Of a stretch of 20,387 nt of DNA, positions 2,447 through 16,273 are shown in pieces. Source of the DNA: a virus. A program made the position numbers and the translations under genes. The stretch is taken from positions 692 through 21,078 of IMG/VR virus record IMGVR_UViG_3300029319_000561; one strand, given 5' to 3'. The notes under the pieces were generated by a model. That model worked only from the letters and a program-made list of their open reading frames with translations, had not been told where the DNA came from and made no database searches. How positions within the stretch are numbered: the first letter of the stretch is position 1; each line of letters begins with the position of its first letter.

Positions 2447-3532
2447 ATGGCAAAAGAAACCACAACAGAAAATGCAACTGAAGATACTTTAGTTTTTGAT
2501 TCTATGCCTGGTGGGGATAAAAAAGACCCACAAGGAACTGATTCATTTACAGTTGATTTAGATTTTTCAGAAGATACAACAACCGAGGATACAGATCCTG
2601 TTGCTACGGAGGAGCAAGAAGTTGAAGAAGAAACCACAGAAGAACCACAGGCTGAGAGTGAAGAAGCTCAACCAGAGGAAGTTGAGGACGAAACAGAAAC
2701 AGAAACAGTGGACGAAGCAGAAAGTTCAGTTGAATCAGAACCAGAAACAGCAGACGAGGAAGCTGTACAGGGAGATGTACAACAAGTTGAAGAGGAACCT
2801 AGTCCAGTAGAGGAGAAAAAAGCACCAATGGTGCCAAAATCTAGGTTAGATGAGGTGTTAGCTAAGCAAAAAGCTTTGCAAAAACAGCTAGATGACCTGC
2901 AAACTGCTAAAGTTGAAGCTGTAACTGAAGCTCCAGAATATGATTTTGCCGCAAAAGAGGCTGAATATCAGCAATTTGTGCTAGATGGCGAGTCAGAAAA
3001 AGCTATTGCTTTAAGAACTGAGATAAGAAACGCTGAAAAACAACAAATTATGTTTGAGGTACAACAAACTACTACTCAAAACATTCAACAATCTACTGAA
3101 GCGCAGTCTTTACAAGCTAAAGCTACTGAATTAGAGGCTCAATATCCTATTTTTGATGTAAATAGTGCCGAACATGACCCTGATTTGTTAAAAGAAGCCT
3201 TAGATTTACGTGATGCCTTTATGATTCAAGGGTATGATGGTGCTTACGCACTAGAAAAAGCTGTTAATACTACTCTAACGTTACAAAAACCAGAATTATT
3301 ACAAACAGAAGCTCCTAAAGTCGATCCAAAAGTAGCAGAACTCAATAAAAAGAAACAAACTGCTAAGGTCAGCGCTAAAATAGAGGCTTCACAGCAACAA
3401 CCCCCTGCTATGAAAGGAGAAGGTGCTGCCCAAAGAGGTGATAAACCAGTTGATCTTAATAAATTATCTGAAAAAGAGTTTAATGCGCTTCCAGAAGAAA
3501 CTCTTAAAAGGTTGCGTGGGGATTTTGGGTAA
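2447..3532 (+). CDS. Scaffolding protein
   Basis: Putative capsid assembly scaffold of 361 residues. Residues 1-125 are extremely acidic and low in complexity (runs of Glu, Thr, Asp). Around 130-155 comes a coiled-coil start, VPKSRLDEVLAKQKALQKQL, of the kind common in phage scaffolds. The middle is helical and Gln/Ala/Glu-rich, and the C-terminus ends in a compact charged helix (EKEFNALPEETLKRLRGDFG), resembling the coat-binding tails of short-tailed-phage scaffolds. It has no transmembrane segment. Position between portal and major capsid protein is the standard scaffold position. The start is ATG at 2447 behind TAGGAG (2435-2440), which overlaps the end of the portal gene. Primary sequence is poorly conserved in this class, so the call rests on composition, ending and location. 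Confidence 0.82.
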   Translation: MAKETTTENATEDTLVFDSMPGGDKKDPQGTDSFTVDLDFSEDTTTEDTDPVATEEQEVEEETTEEPQAESEEAQPEEVEDETETETVDEAESSVESEPETADEEAVQGDVQQVEEEPSPVEEKKAPMVPKSRLDEVLAKQKALQKQLDDLQTAKVEAVTEAPEYDFAAKEAEYQQFVLDGESEKAIALRTEIRNAEKQQIMFEVQQTTTQNIQQSTEAQSLQAKATELEAQYPIFDVNSAEHDPDLLKEALDLRDAFMIQGYDGAYALEKAVNTTLTLQKPELLQTEAPKVDPKVAELNKKKQTAKVSAKIEASQQQPPAMKGEGAAQRGDKPVDLNKLSEKEFNALPEETLKRLRGDFG

Positions 3533-3735
3533 GCTAAGATAGAAGTTCGTTTGCTAAAACGATATTTAGCCCTCGTCGTGGAGGTAAAACACGTTACTCG
3601 TCAATCAAGACGTAAAACATGATCGAGCTCGTGTTCGTTACAATCACGTAGACGTTTCCCAACGATAAAGGGTAGACGGGTAAAAGTCGCCCCAGAATAT
3701 AGCGACTGGTTAACTTTAATTATAAAGGTATATAA
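3533..3735 (+). promoter_or_regulatory. Hairpin-rich leader upstream of the capsid gene
   Basis: This 203-base gap is the longest non-coding stretch in the window. Between 3553 and 3651 it can be drawn as consecutive hairpins that all have six-base loops: 3553-3570 (GCTAAA/TTTAGC), 3571-3584 (CCTC/GAGG), 3584-3597 (GTAA/TTAC, sharing base 3584), 3599-3612 (CGTC/GACG), 3616-3635 (AACATGA/TCGTGTT with one G-U) and 3638-3651 (TTAC/GTAG with one G-U). A further six-pair stem, AGTCGC/GCGACT, spans 3685-3707. TAAAAC recurs at 3555, 3585 and 3613, TAAAAG at 3681, and GTAGACG at 3648 and 3672. CpG is frequent compared with the flanks. The last 25 bases are AT-rich and carry AAAGG (3724-3728) seven bases before the capsid ATG. 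I read it as a structured 5' leader or processing/regulatory RNA; function and family are unknown. Confidence 0.5.
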
Positions 3736-4878
3736 ATGGCTAATACTAACTTTAGCGCGTTGACCAGTGAACAGCTCACCATCTGGTCTCGTGATTTCTG
3801 GCGTGTTGCTAGGAATATGTCTTTCATTAACCAATTCGCAGGTAGCGGACCTAACTCCATGGTTCAGGAAATTTCTGAACTTACTCAATCCGAGAAAGGA
3901 GCAAGAGCAGTGTTAACACTTCTTGCTGACATGACCGGTGACGGTATTGTTGGGGACAACACCCTAGAAGGTAATGAAGAGGCATTAAGATCCTTCGACA
4001 TTGTCGTACAGCTTGATCAATTAAGATTTGCTAATAGGCTTTCGGGCAGATTGGCTGATCAAAAATCAGTTGTAAATTTCCGTGAGCATTCTAGAGATGC
4101 ACTTGCTTATGCAATGGCTGATAGAATAGACCAACTTGCGTTTTTATCGCTAGCTGGGATTGCATACACTAATAAAAACAACGGAGCTTTGAGGCCTGTT
4201 CTTACATCAGGACAGAACCTTGGGGATCTTACGTTTAATAGTGATGTAACTGCACCAACAAGTAATAGACACAAAAGAATCAATGGTAATGATCTTGCCG
4301 CTGGTTCTGTTACATCTATTACTGCTTCTGATACTTTGAAGTACAGACACATTGTCGATCTAAAAGCTTTTGCTAAAGATCAGTACATCAGAGGTATGAG
4401 AGGTGCTGGCAACGAAGAAATGTATCATTTCTTTGTTTCTCCGCAAGTAATGGCTGACCTTAAACTCGATTCAGACTTCTTATCAAACGTAAGAAGCGCT
4501 GGTATCAGAGGACCAAACAACGAACTATTTGCTGGATCTTCTAGCTTAATGGTTGACGGTGTTATGGTTCATGAGTTTAGGCATGTATTTAACACATCAG
4601 GTGCTACATCTGGATCAAGCAGTAATGCTGGTTCTGCTGGGTACAAAGGTGGTACAGGTGCTAATGTTGATTATGCATCATGTCTATTCTGCGGTGCGCA
4701 GGCACTTGCAATGGCTGACATTGGTCTTCCAGAAATAGTTGAAGATACTTTCGACTACGGAAACCAAAACGGTATTTCAATTGGTAAGATTTTTGGTCTT
4801 AAGAAACCTAAGTACAATTCTGACGTAACAGGTCAGGCTGAAGACTTCGGTGTCATAAGATTAGATGTCGCATTCTAA
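3736..4878 (+). CDS. Major capsid protein, N4-gp56-like family
   Basis: Major capsid protein of 380 residues, expected to have the HK97 fold and to build the icosahedral head. The N-terminal sequence (SEQLTIWSRDFWRVAR, then FINQFAGSGPNSMVQ) and the block around residues 50-140 with LTLLADMTGDGIVGDN and REHSRDALAYAMADRIDQL match the pattern of the N4-gp56 family of capsid proteins, and the protein ends with FGVIRLDVAF, a typical ending of that family. It sits directly after the scaffold. The gene is flanked by a structured leader upstream and a strong terminator downstream, so it is likely to be expressed at a level different from its neighbours. The ATG at 3736 has AAAGG seven bases upstream in an AT-rich stretch. 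Confidence 0.9.
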   Translation: MANTNFSALTSEQLTIWSRDFWRVARNMSFINQFAGSGPNSMVQEISELTQSEKGARAVLTLLADMTGDGIVGDNTLEGNEEALRSFDIVVQLDQLRFANRLSGRLADQKSVVNFREHSRDALAYAMADRIDQLAFLSLAGIAYTNKNNGALRPVLTSGQNLGDLTFNSDVTAPTSNRHKRINGNDLAAGSVTSITASDTLKYRHIVDLKAFAKDQYIRGMRGAGNEEMYHFFVSPQVMADLKLDSDFLSNVRSAGIRGPNNELFAGSSSLMVDGVMVHEFRHVFNTSGATSGSSSNAGSAGYKGGTGANVDYASCLFCGAQALAMADIGLPEIVEDTFDYGNQNGISIGKIFGLKKPKYNSDVTGQAEDFGVIRLDVAF

Positions 4879-4892
4879 TTGTGATAACATTT

Positions 4893-4932
4893 TACAGGTG
4901 GCTAGCATTACGTTAGTCACCTGTATTTTTTT
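4893..4932 (+). terminator. Rho-independent terminator after the capsid gene
   Basis: A 12-pair stem joins bases 4893-4904 (TACAGGTGGCTA) to 4914-4925 (TAGTCACCTGTA), with one G-T pair and a nine-base loop (4905-4913), followed at once by seven T residues (4926-4932). It begins 15 bases after the capsid stop codon and ends just before the ribosome binding site of the next gene. This is a textbook intrinsic terminator, placed like the one that follows the capsid gene in T7. Partial read-through would be needed to express the downstream structural genes unless another promoter exists. Confidence 0.92.
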
Positions 4933-4944
4933 AAGGAGTAATTT

Positions 4945-5265
4945 ATGAAAGTAGTATTTGATCAAGACACATATGTAGCATCTACGTGGGGACATGCGGA
5001 TTCTTTTGAGGCAGGTGTGCCTAAAGTGGTAGGTAAGGATTTTGGGGTTCTATGTTTACAACAAGGGGCTAGAGAACTAGACGATACGGAAGAAGTTGTA
5101 GTGGCTGAACCCGTTGAAGAAGCTCCCGCTGGAGAGGCTGTGGTAGATTTAGAGTCTATGACAAAAATACAGCTAGAAGAGTACGGTCGTACTATAGGTA
5201 TTGAGTTAGATAGACGTAAGACTAAAGCTAACTTAATAGAAGAACTAAAGGCTGCAATTAACTAA
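4945..5265 (+). CDS. Small capsid-region protein with SAP/HeH-like C-terminal domain
   Basis: Protein of 106 residues with two parts. Residues 1-46 form a short beta-rich segment (VVGKDFGVLCLQQGARELDD at the end) of a kind often seen in small proteins encoded after phage capsid genes. A Glu/Val/Ala-rich acidic linker covers about 47-70. Residues 71-105, MTKIQLEEYGRTIGIELDRR and on, form a helix-extended-helix pattern of the SAP/HeH/Rho-N type, ending in KANLIEELKAAI. Such domains can bind nucleic acid, but in virion genes they are also common as small capsid-associated modules. The ATG follows AAGGAG (4933-4938) immediately after the capsid terminator. A role as head-completion or decoration protein is inferred from position only. 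Confidence 0.6.
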   Translation: MKVVFDQDTYVASTWGHADSFEAGVPKVVGKDFGVLCLQQGARELDDTEEVVVAEPVEEAPAGEAVVDLESMTKIQLEEYGRTIGIELDRRKTKANLIEELKAAIN

Positions 5266-5272
5266 ATAAAAC

Positions 5273-5983
5273 ATGGGAACACTCACGGGGGCTAATTTAA
5301 TAACTAGAGTTCAAGACACCTTACAAGACACTACTAGTGTCAGGTGGTCTGAAGCTGAACTTCTTAGATATCTAAACGATGCGCAACGTGAGGTTGTTAA
5401 TTTAAGGCCAGATGCTTCTGCTCTAACGGCAAATGTTCAGTTAAGCACGGGTACTTTACAGACCATTCCCACTAATGGGTTACGTTTATTAAAGATAACT
5501 AGAAATATGTCTGGCACTAGTGGTAGTGCTACTGGAGGTCGGGCTATTCGAATAGTTGATTTCGACATACTTAATACACAAGAACCTAATTGGAATGACC
5601 CAACTGTAACTGGGGATGCTGCCCATGGCACTATCGTAAAACATTACGCTTTTGATCAGGATGACCCTAGGAAGTATTACGTCTATCCTGGTGTGTCTGG
5701 TAATGCGTATGTAGAGATTGTCTATTCTAAAACACCGGATGATTTTAGTTCGACTTCATCTACTCTTGATATTGATGATATATTTGCAAACGCCGTAGTG
5801 GATTTTGTTTTGTTCAAAGCATACCTAAAAGATTCTGAGTATGCAGGTAATGCAGTTAGGTCTAACCAACATTATGCTCTTTTTAATAACAGTTTAGGTC
5901 AATCAACAGCTGCTTCAAACATTAGCAACCCTAATTTTGATTACAATGCTAACAATACGGGAACTGTAGTAGGAGGAAGATGA
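5273..5983 (+). CDS. Head-tail adaptor protein
   Basis: Protein of 236 residues that I assign to the phage adaptor class. The N-terminal helix pair (LITRVQDTLQDTTSVRWSEA, then ELLRYLNDAQREVVNLRPDA) is the characteristic start of connector/adaptor proteins of the DUF6682-like type, followed by a beta-rich middle (residues about 50-165) and a C-terminal helix (ANAVVDFVLFKAYLKDSEYA, then YALF). It would form the ring under the portal that closes the head and joins it to the tail. The start ATG has no clear ribosome binding site (AAAGG is about 22 bases away); the gene begins seven bases after the stop of the previous gene, and an in-frame TAA at 5267 excludes a longer form, so reinitiation or coupling is likely. 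Confidence 0.72.
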   Translation: MGTLTGANLITRVQDTLQDTTSVRWSEAELLRYLNDAQREVVNLRPDASALTANVQLSTGTLQTIPTNGLRLLKITRNMSGTSGSATGGRAIRIVDFDILNTQEPNWNDPTVTGDAAHGTIVKHYAFDQDDPRKYYVYPGVSGNAYVEIVYSKTPDDFSSTSSTLDIDDIFANAVVDFVLFKAYLKDSEYAGNAVRSNQHYALFNNSLGQSTAASNISNPNFDYNANNTGTVVGGR

Positions 5984-10417: not shown

Positions 10418-13400
10418 GTGGCGATTGAAAATGATACATTTTTCAGCGAATTTGCAAAAACTTCTGCTGGAGAAATAGAACAAGACACTTTTCAGTCTGA
10501 ACAAGCAGCACAAGGCGCACAGCTAACTGACCCCATTCAAATTTTTAAACAAGGTGTTTCTTCCGGGGCTAATAATCTAGCAGCTAACATACAGTATTTT
10601 AAAGGCATTGGTAACTCCATCATGGAGGATCAAGATGCTTTAGAGAAAAATCTTTATGCAGCCGAAAGGTACGAACGGGAAGCTGGCATGGCTATGGCGG
10701 ATGTACAGCAGTTTGATGATTTTCTAGAAAACCCAACCGCTTTAGGTTTTGTAAATCAAGTAGCAAGTGCAACAGGGCAGTTCGCGCCCTCTGCTATTGC
10801 TAGTGTGGCTTCAGCTGTATCTGGAGCTGGAGCGGGGGTTGCTGTTGTTGGGCTTACAGGCGTAACAAAAGGTCTAGTTCAAACTGTAGCAAAAAAAGAA
10901 ATTCAAAAAGTTTATAAAAAGAAAATGAAAAAACAGCCCCTTACTAAAGATGAAGAAGATCTTTTAAAGGGGTCTTACGAATCTTATAAAAAACTTAGGT
11001 TTGGCCCTGCTGCTAAAGGCGGTGCTGTAGCGGGTGCAGTAGCTCAAGAATATCCGCAAGGCGCAGGTATAGCGTTTGCTAATTTTGCTGAAGAAGATAT
11101 GACTGATCCAATTCGAGCGTTTCAATCTCTAGGAATTGGTGTTCCGTTTGCTGCAGTTGGTGTGGGAGCAGAAGCATTAGTATTTAAAGGGCTGACAGGT
11201 GTTCTTAAGAAACAAGGATCGGGGCCTATCCATAAACGTATTTTAGGAGCAATAGGACAAAGTGCTGGTAGAACGGGAGTTGTAGAAGGTCTAACAGAAG
11301 GCATACAAGAAGAACTTTCTGTTCAACAAAAATTTGCTATTGATGATGACTACAGTAGAGCTCAAGCAAAACTAGATAGAGCGCAAGCTGTATTTGCTGG
11401 TTTCTTTGGTGGTGTGGGTATAGGTGCGGCTGGTGGAACGGTAGCTGGTACTTTAAATGCCGCAACAGGTAATAGGATTATAGATAAAGCTAGAGAAAAT
11501 GTAATAGGTGGATATAGACGAGAACAATACAATGACTTTTTAAAAGAAAGGTACGGAATAGATCCAAAAGATGGACTGGGTCAGGTAGCTACAGAACCTA
11601 AAGCATGGATAAAAGCTCAAATAGAAGCTATATTTGACCCTACTAATTCTAAAGATTCTATTTTTATAGACAGAGCTAGCATAGGTATTTTTAACGAAGT
11701 TAGAGACGAAAACCCAGAGTTAGCAGCCCGATTAGATCAAATACCTAACCATTCTGCAGCGGATACAGGCGACCTGTCCGCTGGACTTCTGTTTAGTACC
11801 GATGGCGCAAAAGTAAACAAATTTAAAGAGGTTACAGATGAGTTTTTATACGACGGTACTAAACAAGACGAAGTTCTCGTAGATATTTTAGGGTATGAAC
11901 ATGGTAGGCTACCTGACGCTGATAGAGTAGTAGAAGTAAGAGATGCTGCTAATAATGTATTATGGTACCAATCTACAACCCTTGAAAAAGAAGCAGACGT
12001 AAAAGCAAAAGCAAAAGAACTATTCCCAGAGTCCAACAACATAGTCAGCGTTGACATAGATGATCACCTTTCTAGGAGAAACCAAGGACCAAAGGCTAGA
12101 GGGTCTGGACCATTTGAGTTAGATGATGAAGGCGAGGTAGTACAAGACGACGGTATAACTGAAGAAGAAGAACAAGAAGCCTTAGCTGCGTTTCGATTTG
12201 AGACTCCAGGTATTTCAGAAGAGCCAGGTATTAGGTCGGCTAATCAAAATGCTAGATTAACAGTTGAAGGTATTCAAAAAGGTGAAGGTTGGTCTAGAGG
12301 AGCATCGAGAGATACACAGTTGCAGACAGATGCCGCAGCTTATTTTCCTGCCTTTCCTCAGTATGCGGACAGAATGAACAGCGAGTTAAATCGTGGGTTT
12401 TACTCGGATGCTTTATTAAGGACTTATTTAAGAGTTTCAAAGAGAGCGCCTAATAATATTTATGTTATACAAGCCATAGATCCAGAAGCTGATAATGTAA
12501 GGTATGAAATTAAAAGATTAAATACTACGGATGGGCAAGTAGATATTGGACTAGGAATACCTACTGCTGTAACTGAAGCTATAGAAACAGAAAAAGATAG
12601 AATTTTTAGGGGTGGTAAACCTACTGGGTGGAAGATACAGCCCCCAGGTATTAATCCTCAGACTAAACAACCATATAAAATGGTGCCAGTATATATGCCT
12701 GCCTTGACTATTTTAGGTAGGAGAATAAACACTAGATTGGGACTTGCTTCGCCCGAATCAACTGAACTGCAAGGAGCTTTAGAGGGATTTAATACGATAT
12801 TTGTAGAGTTGGGAAAACAAAAATACAAGTTAGACTTTCCTGGTAAACAAGGTGTTGGCCCTAACAGAACTCCACTACCCTTCGAACAGTCAAACGCTAC
12901 TGTGTATCGTTCTAGAGGTAGAGACTATTCTTACAAACAACTACAACCAACCGGTGGCTTTGTAACATCAGGACTTGCAAGTTTAAAAAACAAAGTTCTT
13001 GATGTTGACGCTGGTCTTTTGCAACAGTTAGGTATTACTGAAGAAGAGATTAACGAAATTGAAACTTTAGAGGAGTTAGAGAATCTAGTTGAAGAAGAAA
13101 TAAACCCTAATATATCTGAACCTCAGAACAGAATTATGACTTCTAGTATGTTTGAAGGAGCAGAGTTTCCAGAGTTAGTTACCGGTAGACAACGAACAGA
13201 TGTACAGTTTGAGGAAGGACAAATCTTTGTAGACGAAAATGAACCCCTGCTTTTGAGAACAGAGACTGTTACAGATGTAGAAGGTAACAGAAGTGAAGTA
13301 CCAATTTTTCTTAGAGCTGGAGACCCTAATGCGGTAGTGCTAACAGACGAACTTAGAGCGGCGGGGTTTAAACCAGGTGACGTAGTTAACAGACGGGCAA

Positions 13401-16273
13401 CAGCTAGAACAGTGACGGAAGAATCTACAGACTTTGCACCTCTTACACCAGAGCAACAAGCTGCAGAAGAATACAAAGCTGCTACATTTGATGAGTTAGG
13501 TAGTACCACAAGACGAACAGATCCTGGTAAGTTTGTAGATGTATTCCCATCTTTAGCACAAAGGCTAGGAGACCCTCAGTTTGTTAGTAAGTTGTCTTTT
13601 ATAGCTAAGGATAGATTTAAACTTAAGAAAAGAACTAGAATATTTACATCAGACGTTAACTTTGACGAGGTACTTCCTTTAACAAAAAGCACTTTACCCA
13701 ATCTAAACTATATAAAAGCTCAACAAAATATTCTGAATGATTCTACAGAGCGAGCTAGGTTTATATCGTTAGGCAAAGAAAACATAATTTTAGTTAAAAT
13801 AGGTGCTAATGCTGGTTCTGCTGAGCAGGGAGCAGCGATGATAAGCATTGCTCATGAATTTGGTCACGCTGTATTTGACCAAGAGGTCACTAATAGTCTA
13901 ACAACAGAGATTGGTAAAAAAGTATATGCAGCCTTTGAAGCTGAGAGAAATGCCCCTAACGCCCCTGAAGCGTATCAAGAAGGAAATGAACATGCGTATG
14001 AAGAATGGTACGCCGATAAAATAGGAGGGTTTTTATTAGCAGAACTTAGGAATGAAAAAGTTAAAGCAAAGAATGGGGTTGAGTCTTATTTTAAACGTAT
14101 TGCTAAACAGATAGCGGATGCGTTTAGGAGTCTTGGTTCCGAAATAAGTAAGAGGTTTTCAGTTAATCCTGATTTTACAGACTACGCTCAAAACGTAGTT
14201 AAAACATATAAAGATGGGTTCGTAGACCGTACCCGTAACAAAGGCTCATATCAGCAACGGCGTTATTCAAGGGCTATGGTAGATAACTTTGTTCCTAAAA
14301 CTTACAAGAGTGCAGCGCAAAGAAGTTTCTTCGAGTCTCTTAAAAAAGCTTCTATAGAAATATTAGAAGATCCTTCAACTAAGGCTCCTCTTTATCTAAA
14401 GAAAGTATTCTATCCAGCTGATAATTTCTTAAAAGCTCTAGGCAAAGAAAAAAATATAGGTAAAGCGCTGGCTGCAATGTTTTACACTGCTAGTCAATCA
14501 GAAGGGGGCACAGGTCTCTTAACAGCTAACATCGTAAAAGCTAACGCAGAAGTTAATAAACTTAGCGCTATATTAGAGCTAGATGATGTAGCACAAATAA
14601 CTCCTGAAGCTGAAGCTATCTTATTAGAAGCTGAGAACGATACTATTCCTACCGAACAGTTAGGGGAAAAAGCTAAACAAGTAAGAGAATGGCTTTCTGA
14701 CTTCTACGATAGAGAAAACTTAGGTGCTATTTTTAATAATAAAAAGATAGAAAATTATTTCCCTAGATTGATAGCTGTTGCCGAAATTAGTGAAAACGTC
14801 GCTCTACAGGATTCCTTAGTTAATTTAATTGTACAAAACAACCCTAACACTACAGAGAAAGTAGCAAGAGAAGTGGTACAAGGGTTAATAGCAGAACCAG
14901 CAAATGCTCTGTTGGAAGGTAACGAAACGGATGGTGAAGGTAGATTTAATTTAGGATTAGCTAAAAAAAGAGCAGAGTTGTTTAAAAACATAGGTACGAA
15001 AGATTTAAGAGATGCTCAACTATTAGAAGAACCAGCAATAGCGGTTCGTAAGTACTTATCCAACAGTATAAAACGTTCAGAGTTCAACAAACGTGGTGGA
15101 GCTAAAAGAGTACAAGAGCTTATAGACCAGCTATCAGAAAATGAACAAGGACATGCTATAGATGCTGTAGATGCAATCATGGGCAGGGTCAATCCAAACA
15201 TGGGTGCTAATTTTAGGTTTATTAATAGTTGGGGCTTGGTTGCAAACATTACAACGCTCCTGGCGTTCGCTGTGTTTGCGTCTTTACCTGACTTTGCTGG
15301 GCCTGTTCTTAGGTCAAAAGAGTTTAGTGCGTTTGGTAACTTTGGTAGGGAGCTCCAATCTTATTTTCAAAACAGTGAGGAAGCCTCTAGATTTGCAAAA
15401 GATATAGGCGTGGTATCTACAGATGCTATAAATACTATGTATATCAATGCAGGTGAACTAGATTTTATGAGCAAGAATGCTAAATTCGTATCTGAGAAGT
15501 TTTTTAAGTACACAGGTTTAGAGTGGTACACAAGGTTTACAAGAATATTTGCTGCAGGTATGGGACGTAGGTTCTTAATGGAACATCAGATGAGAGCAGA
15601 CCAAGGTGATGTAAGGTCGCAACGTTTTCTAAAAGAGCTCAATGTTACACCAGCGCAGATAAAAGCTTGGAATAACTCACAGAATGTAGAAGCACATCCT
15701 GAAGTTAAGTTGGCTTTAGCTCAGTTTGTAGATGAGTCTATCGTTAGACCAAATGCTGCTGAAAGACCAGTGTGGGCTTCTGACCCTAGGTTAGCTTTAG
15801 TTTGGCAACTTAAGTCTTTCTTTTACGCATACGGAAAAAATATAGTTGGTGGTGTAATGCGAGAGTCTAGCAGCAGAGTAAGAGAAGGTGCGGGTATGAA
15901 CTCTGCAACTTTACCTCTGTTACTAGCCGCTAGTACCTTACTGCCGTTAAGTATGTTAGGGCTAGACCTTAGAGAAAGGTTTAAGGTAGGATTAGCATGG
16001 GCGTTACCAGGGGTAAGCCCAGAAGATAAGAACTACAGAAAGTCTCTAGATATGGAGTGGGATAAGTATAGTTTTGAGATCATAGATAGGTCAGGTGTGC
16101 TTGGACCGTGGGCTCTAGCAGCACCGTTATTTATGGAAAGTAAACGATATGGAGATCCGTTTTGGATCAGTCCGCTTGGCCCTTCAGCTGAAAAAGCTTA
16201 CGATTTATTGAAAGGAGATTTAGAGTTTGGAGACATGACTCCTATATACAATCAAATAGGAGGATTTGATTAA
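10418..16273 (+). CDS. Giant ejection-type virion protein with zinc metallopeptidase domain
   Basis: Protein of 1951 residues from a GTG start (10418) behind AAGAAGG (10404-10410). Domains in order: residues about 116-160, 200-264 and 325-358 are Gly/Ala-rich hydrophobic segments, some with glycine-zipper spacing, suggesting membrane insertion; 440-1100 is a long mixed region; about 1130-1200 is a zincin-type peptidase with HEFGH at 1146-1150 after an edge strand (ENIILVKIGANAG), and EEWYAD at 1195-1200 giving a likely third zinc ligand (E1196) in an ExxxD arrangement; 1607-1631 and 1832-1850 are hydrophobic segments; the block with WQLKSFFYAYGKNIVGG (about 1800) is a pattern seen near the end of very large phage polyvalent proteins. 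Place and size suggest the T7 gp16-like last ejection protein. Whether the peptidase acts on virion proteins, peptidoglycan or host proteins is unknown. No RNA-polymerase or transglycosylase motif was seen. Confidence 0.65.
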   Translation: MAIENDTFFSEFAKTSAGEIEQDTFQSEQAAQGAQLTDPIQIFKQGVSSGANNLAANIQYFKGIGNSIMEDQDALEKNLYAAERYEREAGMAMADVQQFDDFLENPTALGFVNQVASATGQFAPSAIASVASAVSGAGAGVAVVGLTGVTKGLVQTVAKKEIQKVYKKKMKKQPLTKDEEDLLKGSYESYKKLRFGPAAKGGAVAGAVAQEYPQGAGIAFANFAEEDMTDPIRAFQSLGIGVPFAAVGVGAEALVFKGLTGVLKKQGSGPIHKRILGAIGQSAGRTGVVEGLTEGIQEELSVQQKFAIDDDYSRAQAKLDRAQAVFAGFFGGVGIGAAGGTVAGTLNAATGNRIIDKARENVIGGYRREQYNDFLKERYGIDPKDGLGQVATEPKAWIKAQIEAIFDPTNSKDSIFIDRASIGIFNEVRDENPELAARLDQIPNHSAADTGDLSAGLLFSTDGAKVNKFKEVTDEFLYDGTKQDEVLVDILGYEHGRLPDADRVVEVRDAANNVLWYQSTTLEKEADVKAKAKELFPESNNIVSVDIDDHLSRRNQGPKARGSGPFELDDEGEVVQDDGITEEEEQEALAAFRFETPGISEEPGIRSANQNARLTVEGIQKGEGWSRGASRDTQLQTDAAAYFPAFPQYADRMNSELNRGFYSDALLRTYLRVSKRAPNNIYVIQAIDPEADNVRYEIKRLNTTDGQVDIGLGIPTAVTEAIETEKDRIFRGGKPTGWKIQPPGINPQTKQPYKMVPVYMPALTILGRRINTRLGLASPESTELQGALEGFNTIFVELGKQKYKLDFPGKQGVGPNRTPLPFEQSNATVYRSRGRDYSYKQLQPTGGFVTSGLASLKNKVLDVDAGLLQQLGITEEEINEIETLEELENLVEEEINPNISEPQNRIMTSSMFEGAEFPELVTGRQRTDVQFEEGQIFVDENEPLLLRTETVTDVEGNRSEVPIFLRAGDPNAVVLTDELRAAGFKPGDVVNRRATARTVTEESTDFAPLTPEQQAAEEYKAATFDELGSTTRRTDPGKFVDVFPSLAQRLGDPQFVSKLSFIAKDRFKLKKRTRIFTSDVNFDEVLPLTKSTLPNLNYIKAQQNILNDSTERARFISLGKENIILVKIGANAGSAEQGAAMISIAHEFGHAVFDQEVTNSLTTEIGKKVYAAFEAERNAPNAPEAYQEGNEHAYEEWYADKIGGFLLAELRNEKVKAKNGVESYFKRIAKQIADAFRSLGSEISKRFSVNPDFTDYAQNVVKTYKDGFVDRTRNKGSYQQRRYSRAMVDNFVPKTYKSAAQRSFFESLKKASIEILEDPSTKAPLYLKKVFYPADNFLKALGKEKNIGKALAAMFYTASQSEGGTGLLTANIVKANAEVNKLSAILELDDVAQITPEAEAILLEAENDTIPTEQLGEKAKQVREWLSDFYDRENLGAIFNNKKIENYFPRLIAVAEISENVALQDSLVNLIVQNNPNTTEKVAREVVQGLIAEPANALLEGNETDGEGRFNLGLAKKRAELFKNIGTKDLRDAQLLEEPAIAVRKYLSNSIKRSEFNKRGGAKRVQELIDQLSENEQGHAIDAVDAIMGRVNPNMGANFRFINSWGLVANITTLLAFAVFASLPDFAGPVLRSKEFSAFGNFGRELQSYFQNSEEASRFAKDIGVVSTDAINTMYINAGELDFMSKNAKFVSEKFFKYTGLEWYTRFTRIFAAGMGRRFLMEHQMRADQGDVRSQRFLKELNVTPAQIKAWNNSQNVEAHPEVKLALAQFVDESIVRPNAAERPVWASDPRLALVWQLKSFFYAYGKNIVGGVMRESSSRVREGAGMNSATLPLLLAASTLLPLSMLGLDLRERFKVGLAWALPGVSPEDKNYRKSLDMEWDKYSFEIIDRSGVLGPWALAAPLFMESKRYGDPFWISPLGPSAEKAYDLLKGDLEFGDMTPIYNQIGGFD

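Follow-up and report, generated by a model that had tools for sequence, protein, structure and literature searches.

The window, the whole stretch of 20,387 nucleotides analysed here, comes from a marine phage (virus record of 22.6 kb) and carries the end of a terminase gene, a portal gene (PF16510), a gene in the scaffold position, the major capsid gene, and more structural genes, all on the plus strand. The scaffold-position gene (2447–3532), which is without a match, has the portal gene upstream and the capsid gene downstream. The capsid gene (3736–4878) is of the Phage_capsid_3 and phrog_334 families (Pfam PF13252, E 1.7e-43; phrog_334, E 2.7e-80). The gap between the two genes, 3533–3735, is by far the widest among the main genes of the window, and a small ORF inside it was ruled out by stops in all three forward frames. 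At the DNA level, no likeness to named phages was found. Elsewhere in the window, a small protein encoded after the capsid gene (4945–5265) shows weak matches to the endonuclease VII and prohead protease inhibitor families at about residues 41–105, and 10418–16273 encodes a 1951-residue protein with a GTG start and without a Pfam match.

A preliminary description of the gap reported six tandem hairpins closing six-base loops, and all of them are present. Specifically, 4-6-4 hairpins with at most one G-U pair are found at 3571–3584, 3584–3597, 3599–3612, 3624–3637 (or 3619–3632), and 3638–3651, the segment 3553–3570 forms a perfect 6-6-6 hairpin, and the further stem at 3685–3707 is also there. 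The repeats TAAAAC (3555, 3585, and 3613) and GTAGACG (3648 and 3672) lie where they had been placed, and the reported CpG enrichment was reproduced, with an observed/expected ratio of 1.92 in 3546–3709 vs 0.67 in the whole window. That the cluster goes beyond chance was borne out as well: five non-overlapping 4-6-4 hairpins occur in 99 nt, while dinucleotide shuffles contain about 0.9 on average and none of 3000 reaches five, the five-hairpin statistic being chosen after the fact and another spot of the window, near 5379–5431, also having at least four. Nested folding of the single sequence gave a modest stability (z −1.3 to −2.4), which is explained by the true fold being pseudoknotted. The nested minimum-free-energy fold, only mildly stable and without most of the covarying helices, was rejected as the true structure. 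As single-sequence folding is only mildly stable, comparison with relatives was needed.

A capsid protein search yielded 80 viral loci with 79–100% identity, which contain 64 distinct gap sequences. Among these 64 relatives, only four of the six hairpins are conserved as hairpins, namely 3553–3570 (97% of cells paired), 3571–3584 (94%), 3599–3612 (98%), and 3624–3637 (90%), all with compensatory changes. The outer five pairs of the 3685–3707 stem are 92% paired, again with compensatory changes. The hairpins at 3584–3597 (49% paired) and 3638–3651 (46%) are not conserved, and their bases are parts of pseudoknots 2 and 4. Hence, the picture of independent tandem hairpins with constant loops had to be abandoned: the apparent loops are strands of interleaved helices, and two of the six hairpins are spurious. 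The element proposed in the preliminary description is a structured RNA, but one with a longer span, 3547–3707, or to about 3735 when the spacer with the ribosome-binding site (RBS) is included.

The scaffold-capsid gap almost certainly encodes a conserved pseudoknot RNA (3547–3707, plus strand), in which six H-type pseudoknots follow each other in a chain. In these, a loop strand pairs outside its hairpin and two interleaved helices result. Pseudoknot 1 (3547–3570) is built on module I, one of two recurring modules described below, and is composed of helices P1a (3547–3550/3559–3562) and P1b (3553–3558/3565–3570). It is joined without a linker to pseudoknot 2 (3571–3593; module II), composed of P2a (3571–3574/3581–3584) and P2b (3577–3580/3590–3593). 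Pseudoknot 3 (3599–3623; P3a 3599–3602/3609–3612, P3b 3604–3607/3620–3623) and pseudoknot 4 (3624–3649; P4a 3624–3627/3634–3637, P4b 3629–3633/3645–3649) both belong to module II and likewise have no linker between them; four of the five P4b pairs form in the window sequence. Pseudoknot 5 (3653–3672; P5a 3653–3655/3662–3664, P5b 3658–3660/3670–3672) is module I-like and holds the best-conserved stretch of the whole RNA, and a nearly invariant block, AACGAUAAAGGGUANACGG, lies at knots 5 and 6. Pseudoknot 6 (3678–3707) consists of P6a (3678–3680/3691–3693) and P6b (3685–3689/3703–3707).

The relatives were aligned with MAFFT, fitted to no structure, and 49 pairs in 12 helices were scored. Standard pairs fill 92.0% of the pair cells in the 64 relatives, compared with 81.5% after re-dealing and 30–44% in slid controls, and 30 of the 49 pairs are altered on both sides, compared with 7–12 in slid controls. 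Cells changed on both sides number 386 vs 108 re-dealt, and the covariation score is 0.367 vs 0.164 re-dealt and at most 0.085 slid. The same picture emerges from a second alignment (40 diverse sequences), and parsimony on the capsid tree gives at least 135 double changes. The check proposed in the preliminary description, for conservation and covariation among relatives, was thus passed with 64 distinct relatives. G-U cells outnumber A-C cells by 107 to 4 without P2b and by 134 to 12 with it; this excess indicates that the structure acts as RNA of the plus strand, in the sense of the capsid gene.

Each helix was further tested by re-dealing its 3′ strand among the relatives, which gives a z value. 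In knot 1, P1a is 98% paired (z 5.4) and P1b 97% (z 9.7) with compensatory changes across the 64 relatives, P1a exchanging UCGU/ACGA for UCGC/GCGA or UCGG/CCGA. In knot 2, P2a is 94% paired (z 8.0), and P2b (z 4.1) exchanges CGUU/AACG for CGUG/CACG or CGCU/AGCG; inspection sequence by sequence revealed that many relatives form P2b only with a bulged U and that a few lack it. Knot 3 has P3a 98% paired (z 3.5) and P3b 92% paired (z 9.7), the latter changing from AUCA/UGAU to ACUA/UAGU, CGCA/UGCG, or AACA/UGUU. In knot 4, P4a is 90% and P4b 87% paired (z 5.1 each), and UCGU/ACGA in P4b is replaced by UCAU/AUGA or UCGC/GCGA. The helices of knot 5 are almost invariant (P5a 100% and P5b 98% paired) and have no covariation support in the window clade; analogy with module I of the phiR18 clade, whose stem and closing pair vary together, supports this knot. 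In knot 6, P6a is 100% paired (z 2.1), GGG/CCC becoming GGA/UCC in 20 relatives, and P6b is 92% paired (z 6.4). Judged from these alignments, four knots are well supported, number 6 is mostly so, and number 5 is invariant.

The chain keeps a fixed place in the genome. In all 76 loci with both genes placed, the scaffold-capsid gap is 203–230 nt long, a length that stays steady though the scaffold protein is often just 43–65% identical. A degenerate DNA pattern built from the knot 5–6 block gave 116 viral matches, of which 109 lie 70–91 nt upstream of a capsid match and two run off the contig end. The remaining five, with room downstream and no capsid gene nearby, are without the chain. Another 56 matches came from cellular genomes; none is beside a capsid gene, and they were read as chance. 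Wherever a genuine occurrence was found, the capsid gene follows the RNA directly.

Around the element there is a probable promoter–leader–capsid–terminator unit, which the preliminary description had not seen. A sigma70-like promoter is predicted at 3512–3540 on the plus strand, overlapping the end of the scaffold gene, with a −35 box TTGCGT (3512–3517), a 17-nt spacing, and a −10 box TAAGAT (3535–3540). The window match is weak (7/12) and under the cut-off of the scan. When relatives were scanned with a sigma70-like model, the best −10-like box ended 6–12 nt upstream of knot 1 in 62 of 65, with scores only moderately above those of shuffles. Downstream of the chain, an AU-rich spacer (3708–3735) carries the RBS, AAAGG at 3724–3728. 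In the 64 relatives, the spacer has an average AT content of 76% over about 33 nt vs 55% in the chain, and UUAA occurs 1.8 times per spacer on average. A strong intrinsic terminator is predicted at 4893–4932 on the plus strand, where a 14-pair stem (4893–4925) is followed by a T run, and 43 of 62 relatives (69%) have a terminator-like site within 110 nt past the capsid stop, compared with 1% of shuffles. Considering the −10 box before knot 1, the RBS spacer, and the terminator at the capsid end, the capsid gene probably forms a transcription unit of its own, to which the chain is the 5′ leader.

We then inspected capsid leaders of three further clades, the cultured members of which are Paracoccus phage KLEP18-1, AP1, and Pseudomonas phage phiR18/KPP25. 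The sequences of these leaders differ, and the two modules are reused in what seem to be shorter chains of about three knots. Module I has the form UCGN-NN-stem-NCGA-YAY-stem′. In the phiR18 clade, re-dealing of its stem gives a z of 8.7, and the closing pair is complementary in 36 of 39 leader matches vs 23 of 79 matches elsewhere in the same loci. Module II, TTCGYC-loop-GRCG-TAAA-strand, is present in the window, KLEP, and AP1 clades, and its loop and strand form at least four Watson-Crick pairs in 54% vs 9% when re-dealt. The frame TTCGYC-loop-GRCG-TAAA of knot 3 recurs in two of the distant clades, where loop and partner strand again match each other. In the AP1 clade, the loop-to-strand z values of the first two knots are 6.3 and 6.5, and the stem of the third knot is unsupported by re-dealing (z −1.3). 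A simple knot-count scanner sets the window clade apart from shuffles; it is weak in the distant clades, whose reverse strands score equally high, and the knots of these clades were judged by strand re-dealing instead. A covariance model of the window chain, consisting of hairpins only, was scanned over 289 kb of the distant clades. Its three best matches, L266 (E 0.0022), L084 (E 0.26), and L462 (E 0.59), are all in capsid leaders, only that in L266 being significant. Leaders of Rhizobium and Microcystis phages contain candidate knots, each from a single sequence.

Of 66 phiR18-clade leaders, 36 are insulated by a terminator on their upstream side, and in several members of this clade the first knot comes after a strong −35/−10 pair. 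Complementarity between the RBS and the 3′ strand of knot 2 in this clade exceeds that after re-dealing (15.05 vs 12.77; 0/2000), the shifted controls being null. Across L421–L498 of this phiR18/KPP25 clade (e.g. L423, L426, L470, and L482), the module II 3′ strand is complementary to the capsid RBS region over 6–10 bases. With its apparently matching changes, this pairing is a possible translational switch. In the window clade, pairing between the knot 6 strand and the RBS is unsupported (z 0.8). Two annotations at this gene junction deserve mention. In Pseudomonas phage phiR18 (L082), a hypothetical protein annotated in the scaffold-capsid gap (2292–2411) overlaps a terminator and the leader knots, and is probably not a gene. 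In Burkholderia phage BcepMigl (L499), a gene annotated as a CsrA-like regulator (263–457) is directly upstream of the capsid gene; it occupies the position of the window-clade RNA, which hints at post-transcriptional control of the capsid.

The statement that no named RNA family matches still stands, as no Rfam 15 family reaches its gathering cut-off in the whole window or in the loci of 20 relatives. GP20-b RNA (RF03003) matches weakly over knots 3–4 (3599–3650) and resembles the chain in that its consensus has a similar strand arrangement and a UAAAA loop. It was rejected, with 17.0 bits vs a cut-off of 36.2; seven phage records gave no match, nor did four cultured relatives. DUF2815 RNA (RF03084), which like the window leader has AGGGUAGACG and ends at AUG, scores 21.7 bits vs a cut-off of 41.2 at 3669–3738 in the window and its nearest relative. 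Other clade members match less well or not at all, and the match is therefore probably chance. A tRNA or tmRNA was likewise rejected: ARAGORN found 0 genes, and there is no tRNA-like domain and no tag reading frame. The pseudoknot ring of tmRNA is comparable in having several H-type pseudoknots in series. Neither H-type knots nor structured leaders are new as such. Our literature search, with a 2017 survey of 224 candidate structured RNAs outside its scope, found no description of tandem pseudoknots in phage leaders; as far as searched, a six-knot chain as capsid leader is undescribed. The stabilising 5′-terminal stem-loops of the ompA/papA type resemble the window leader in placing structure at or beside the transcript start (predicted for the window), but they are one stem-loop and not a pseudoknot chain. 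The leader of T4 gene 32 has a 5′ pseudoknot followed by an AU-rich, UUAA-containing unstructured stretch over the RBS (PMC3014915). The window leader shares this layout, with H-type pseudoknots first and an AU-rich RBS region after them, likewise in a phage mRNA. The T4-type leader differs in having one knot before the gene of an ssDNA-binding protein, whereas about six precede the capsid gene in the window. The gene 32 leader is the gp32 operator, to which the window leader is likened by layout.

The chain is very probably a cis-acting leader of the capsid gene and probably governs the amount of capsid protein produced. Among the roles suggested in the preliminary description, a stabiliser of the capsid mRNA or an element of its translation is the best-supported class, and the analysis gave evidence neither for nor against an RNase processing site, a packaging RNA, or the target of a phage regulator. 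The main mechanism may well be protection of the mRNA at its 5′ end with control of capsid output in cis, a proposal to which we give an even chance. From the promoter that overlaps the scaffold gene's end, a capsid-specific transcript would start at, or a few nucleotides from, the first pseudoknot; the terminator past the capsid gene would end it, and the chain would thus lead an mRNA dedicated to the capsid. Such a knotted 5′ end would offer no single-stranded end to RppH and RNase E, nor to RNase J, a 5′ exonuclease. Being compact, the knots would also withstand nucleases and prevent the leader from mispairing with the RBS, which would be kept open in the AU-rich spacer. As a result, the capsid message would be long-lived and well translated relative to those of portal and scaffold. 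RppH and RNase E require single-stranded 5′ ends, and 5′ structure protects mRNA (PMC3997798); a start at the knot, an open RBS, and a terminator of its own would for this reason fit a stable and highly expressed capsid mRNA. However, a single 5′-terminal knot would suffice to shield the end, and the presence of six, together with the nearly invariant block at knots 5–6, suggests recognition by a partner.

Such a partner is central to the main rival explanation, a translational operator, which we hold to be less likely. A phage protein (capsid, scaffold, or other) would bind the chain and then the AU-rich RBS spacer, thereby stopping or timing capsid translation as gp32 does. The layout shared with the T4 gene 32 leader (PMC3014915) and the nearly invariant knot 5–6 block are consistent with this. 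So is the knot 2 strand of the phiR18 clade, complementary to the RBS beyond re-dealing; it points to translational control at least in that clade, where a switch working by pairing of the knot 2 sequence with the Shine-Dalgarno region is plausible. In the window clade, however, the strand examined for anti-RBS pairing gives no signal (z 0.8); an RNA-binding partner is not known, and a phage needs capsid excess more than capsid shut-off.

The remaining explanations are each improbable. Processing or termination could release the leader as a small RNA of its own, regulatory or virion-borne, with the capsid gene a mere neighbour. The compactness of the chain, its conservation, its own promoter-like start, and the ability of knots to resist nucleases would agree with this, but, by eye, no terminator recurs consistently in the stretch from knot 6 to the RBS, and the chain is always capsid-adjacent at a near-constant distance, with the RBS immediately after it. 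Slightly less probable again is that the nascent chain modifies RNA polymerase for the downstream late genes by put-like antitermination or pausing. High conservation at a probable transcript start would be expected of such an RNA, yet the late genes already begin upstream of it, where terminase and portal lie, and the terminator past the capsid gene in 69% of relatives would be defeated by an antiterminator upstream of it. Inverted repeats and CpG-rich sequence would also suit a DNA-level element (a packaging, replication, or recombination site) or chance palindromes. Given the 107 G-U vs 4 A-C cells and the interleaved pairing compensated on one strand only, this has next to no likelihood, the strand and covariation tests having refuted it as the main explanation.

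From a single gene cluster, tailed phages produce hundreds of capsid copies vs a dozen portals, a difference usually credited to promoters and RBS strength. Here, an elaborate conserved RNA is placed exactly at the step of capsid-versus-portal dosage. With six knots, most of them covarying, absence from Rfam, and a shorter form in cultured phages, the chain provides a testable system for RNA-based dosage control, and also for nuclease-resistant 5′ leaders. Tentatively, and at less than even probability, we propose a modular class of RNA, in which chains of three to six small H-type knots are assembled from two modules and serve as a general 5′ leader for the capsid mRNAs of phages sharing this fold, both marine and cultured (Pseudomonas, Acidovorax, Paracoccus, Rhizobium, and perhaps Microcystis). 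Such leaders would act as a dosage control specific to the capsid, setting its output apart from that of portal and scaffold, perhaps through the sensing of a virion protein.
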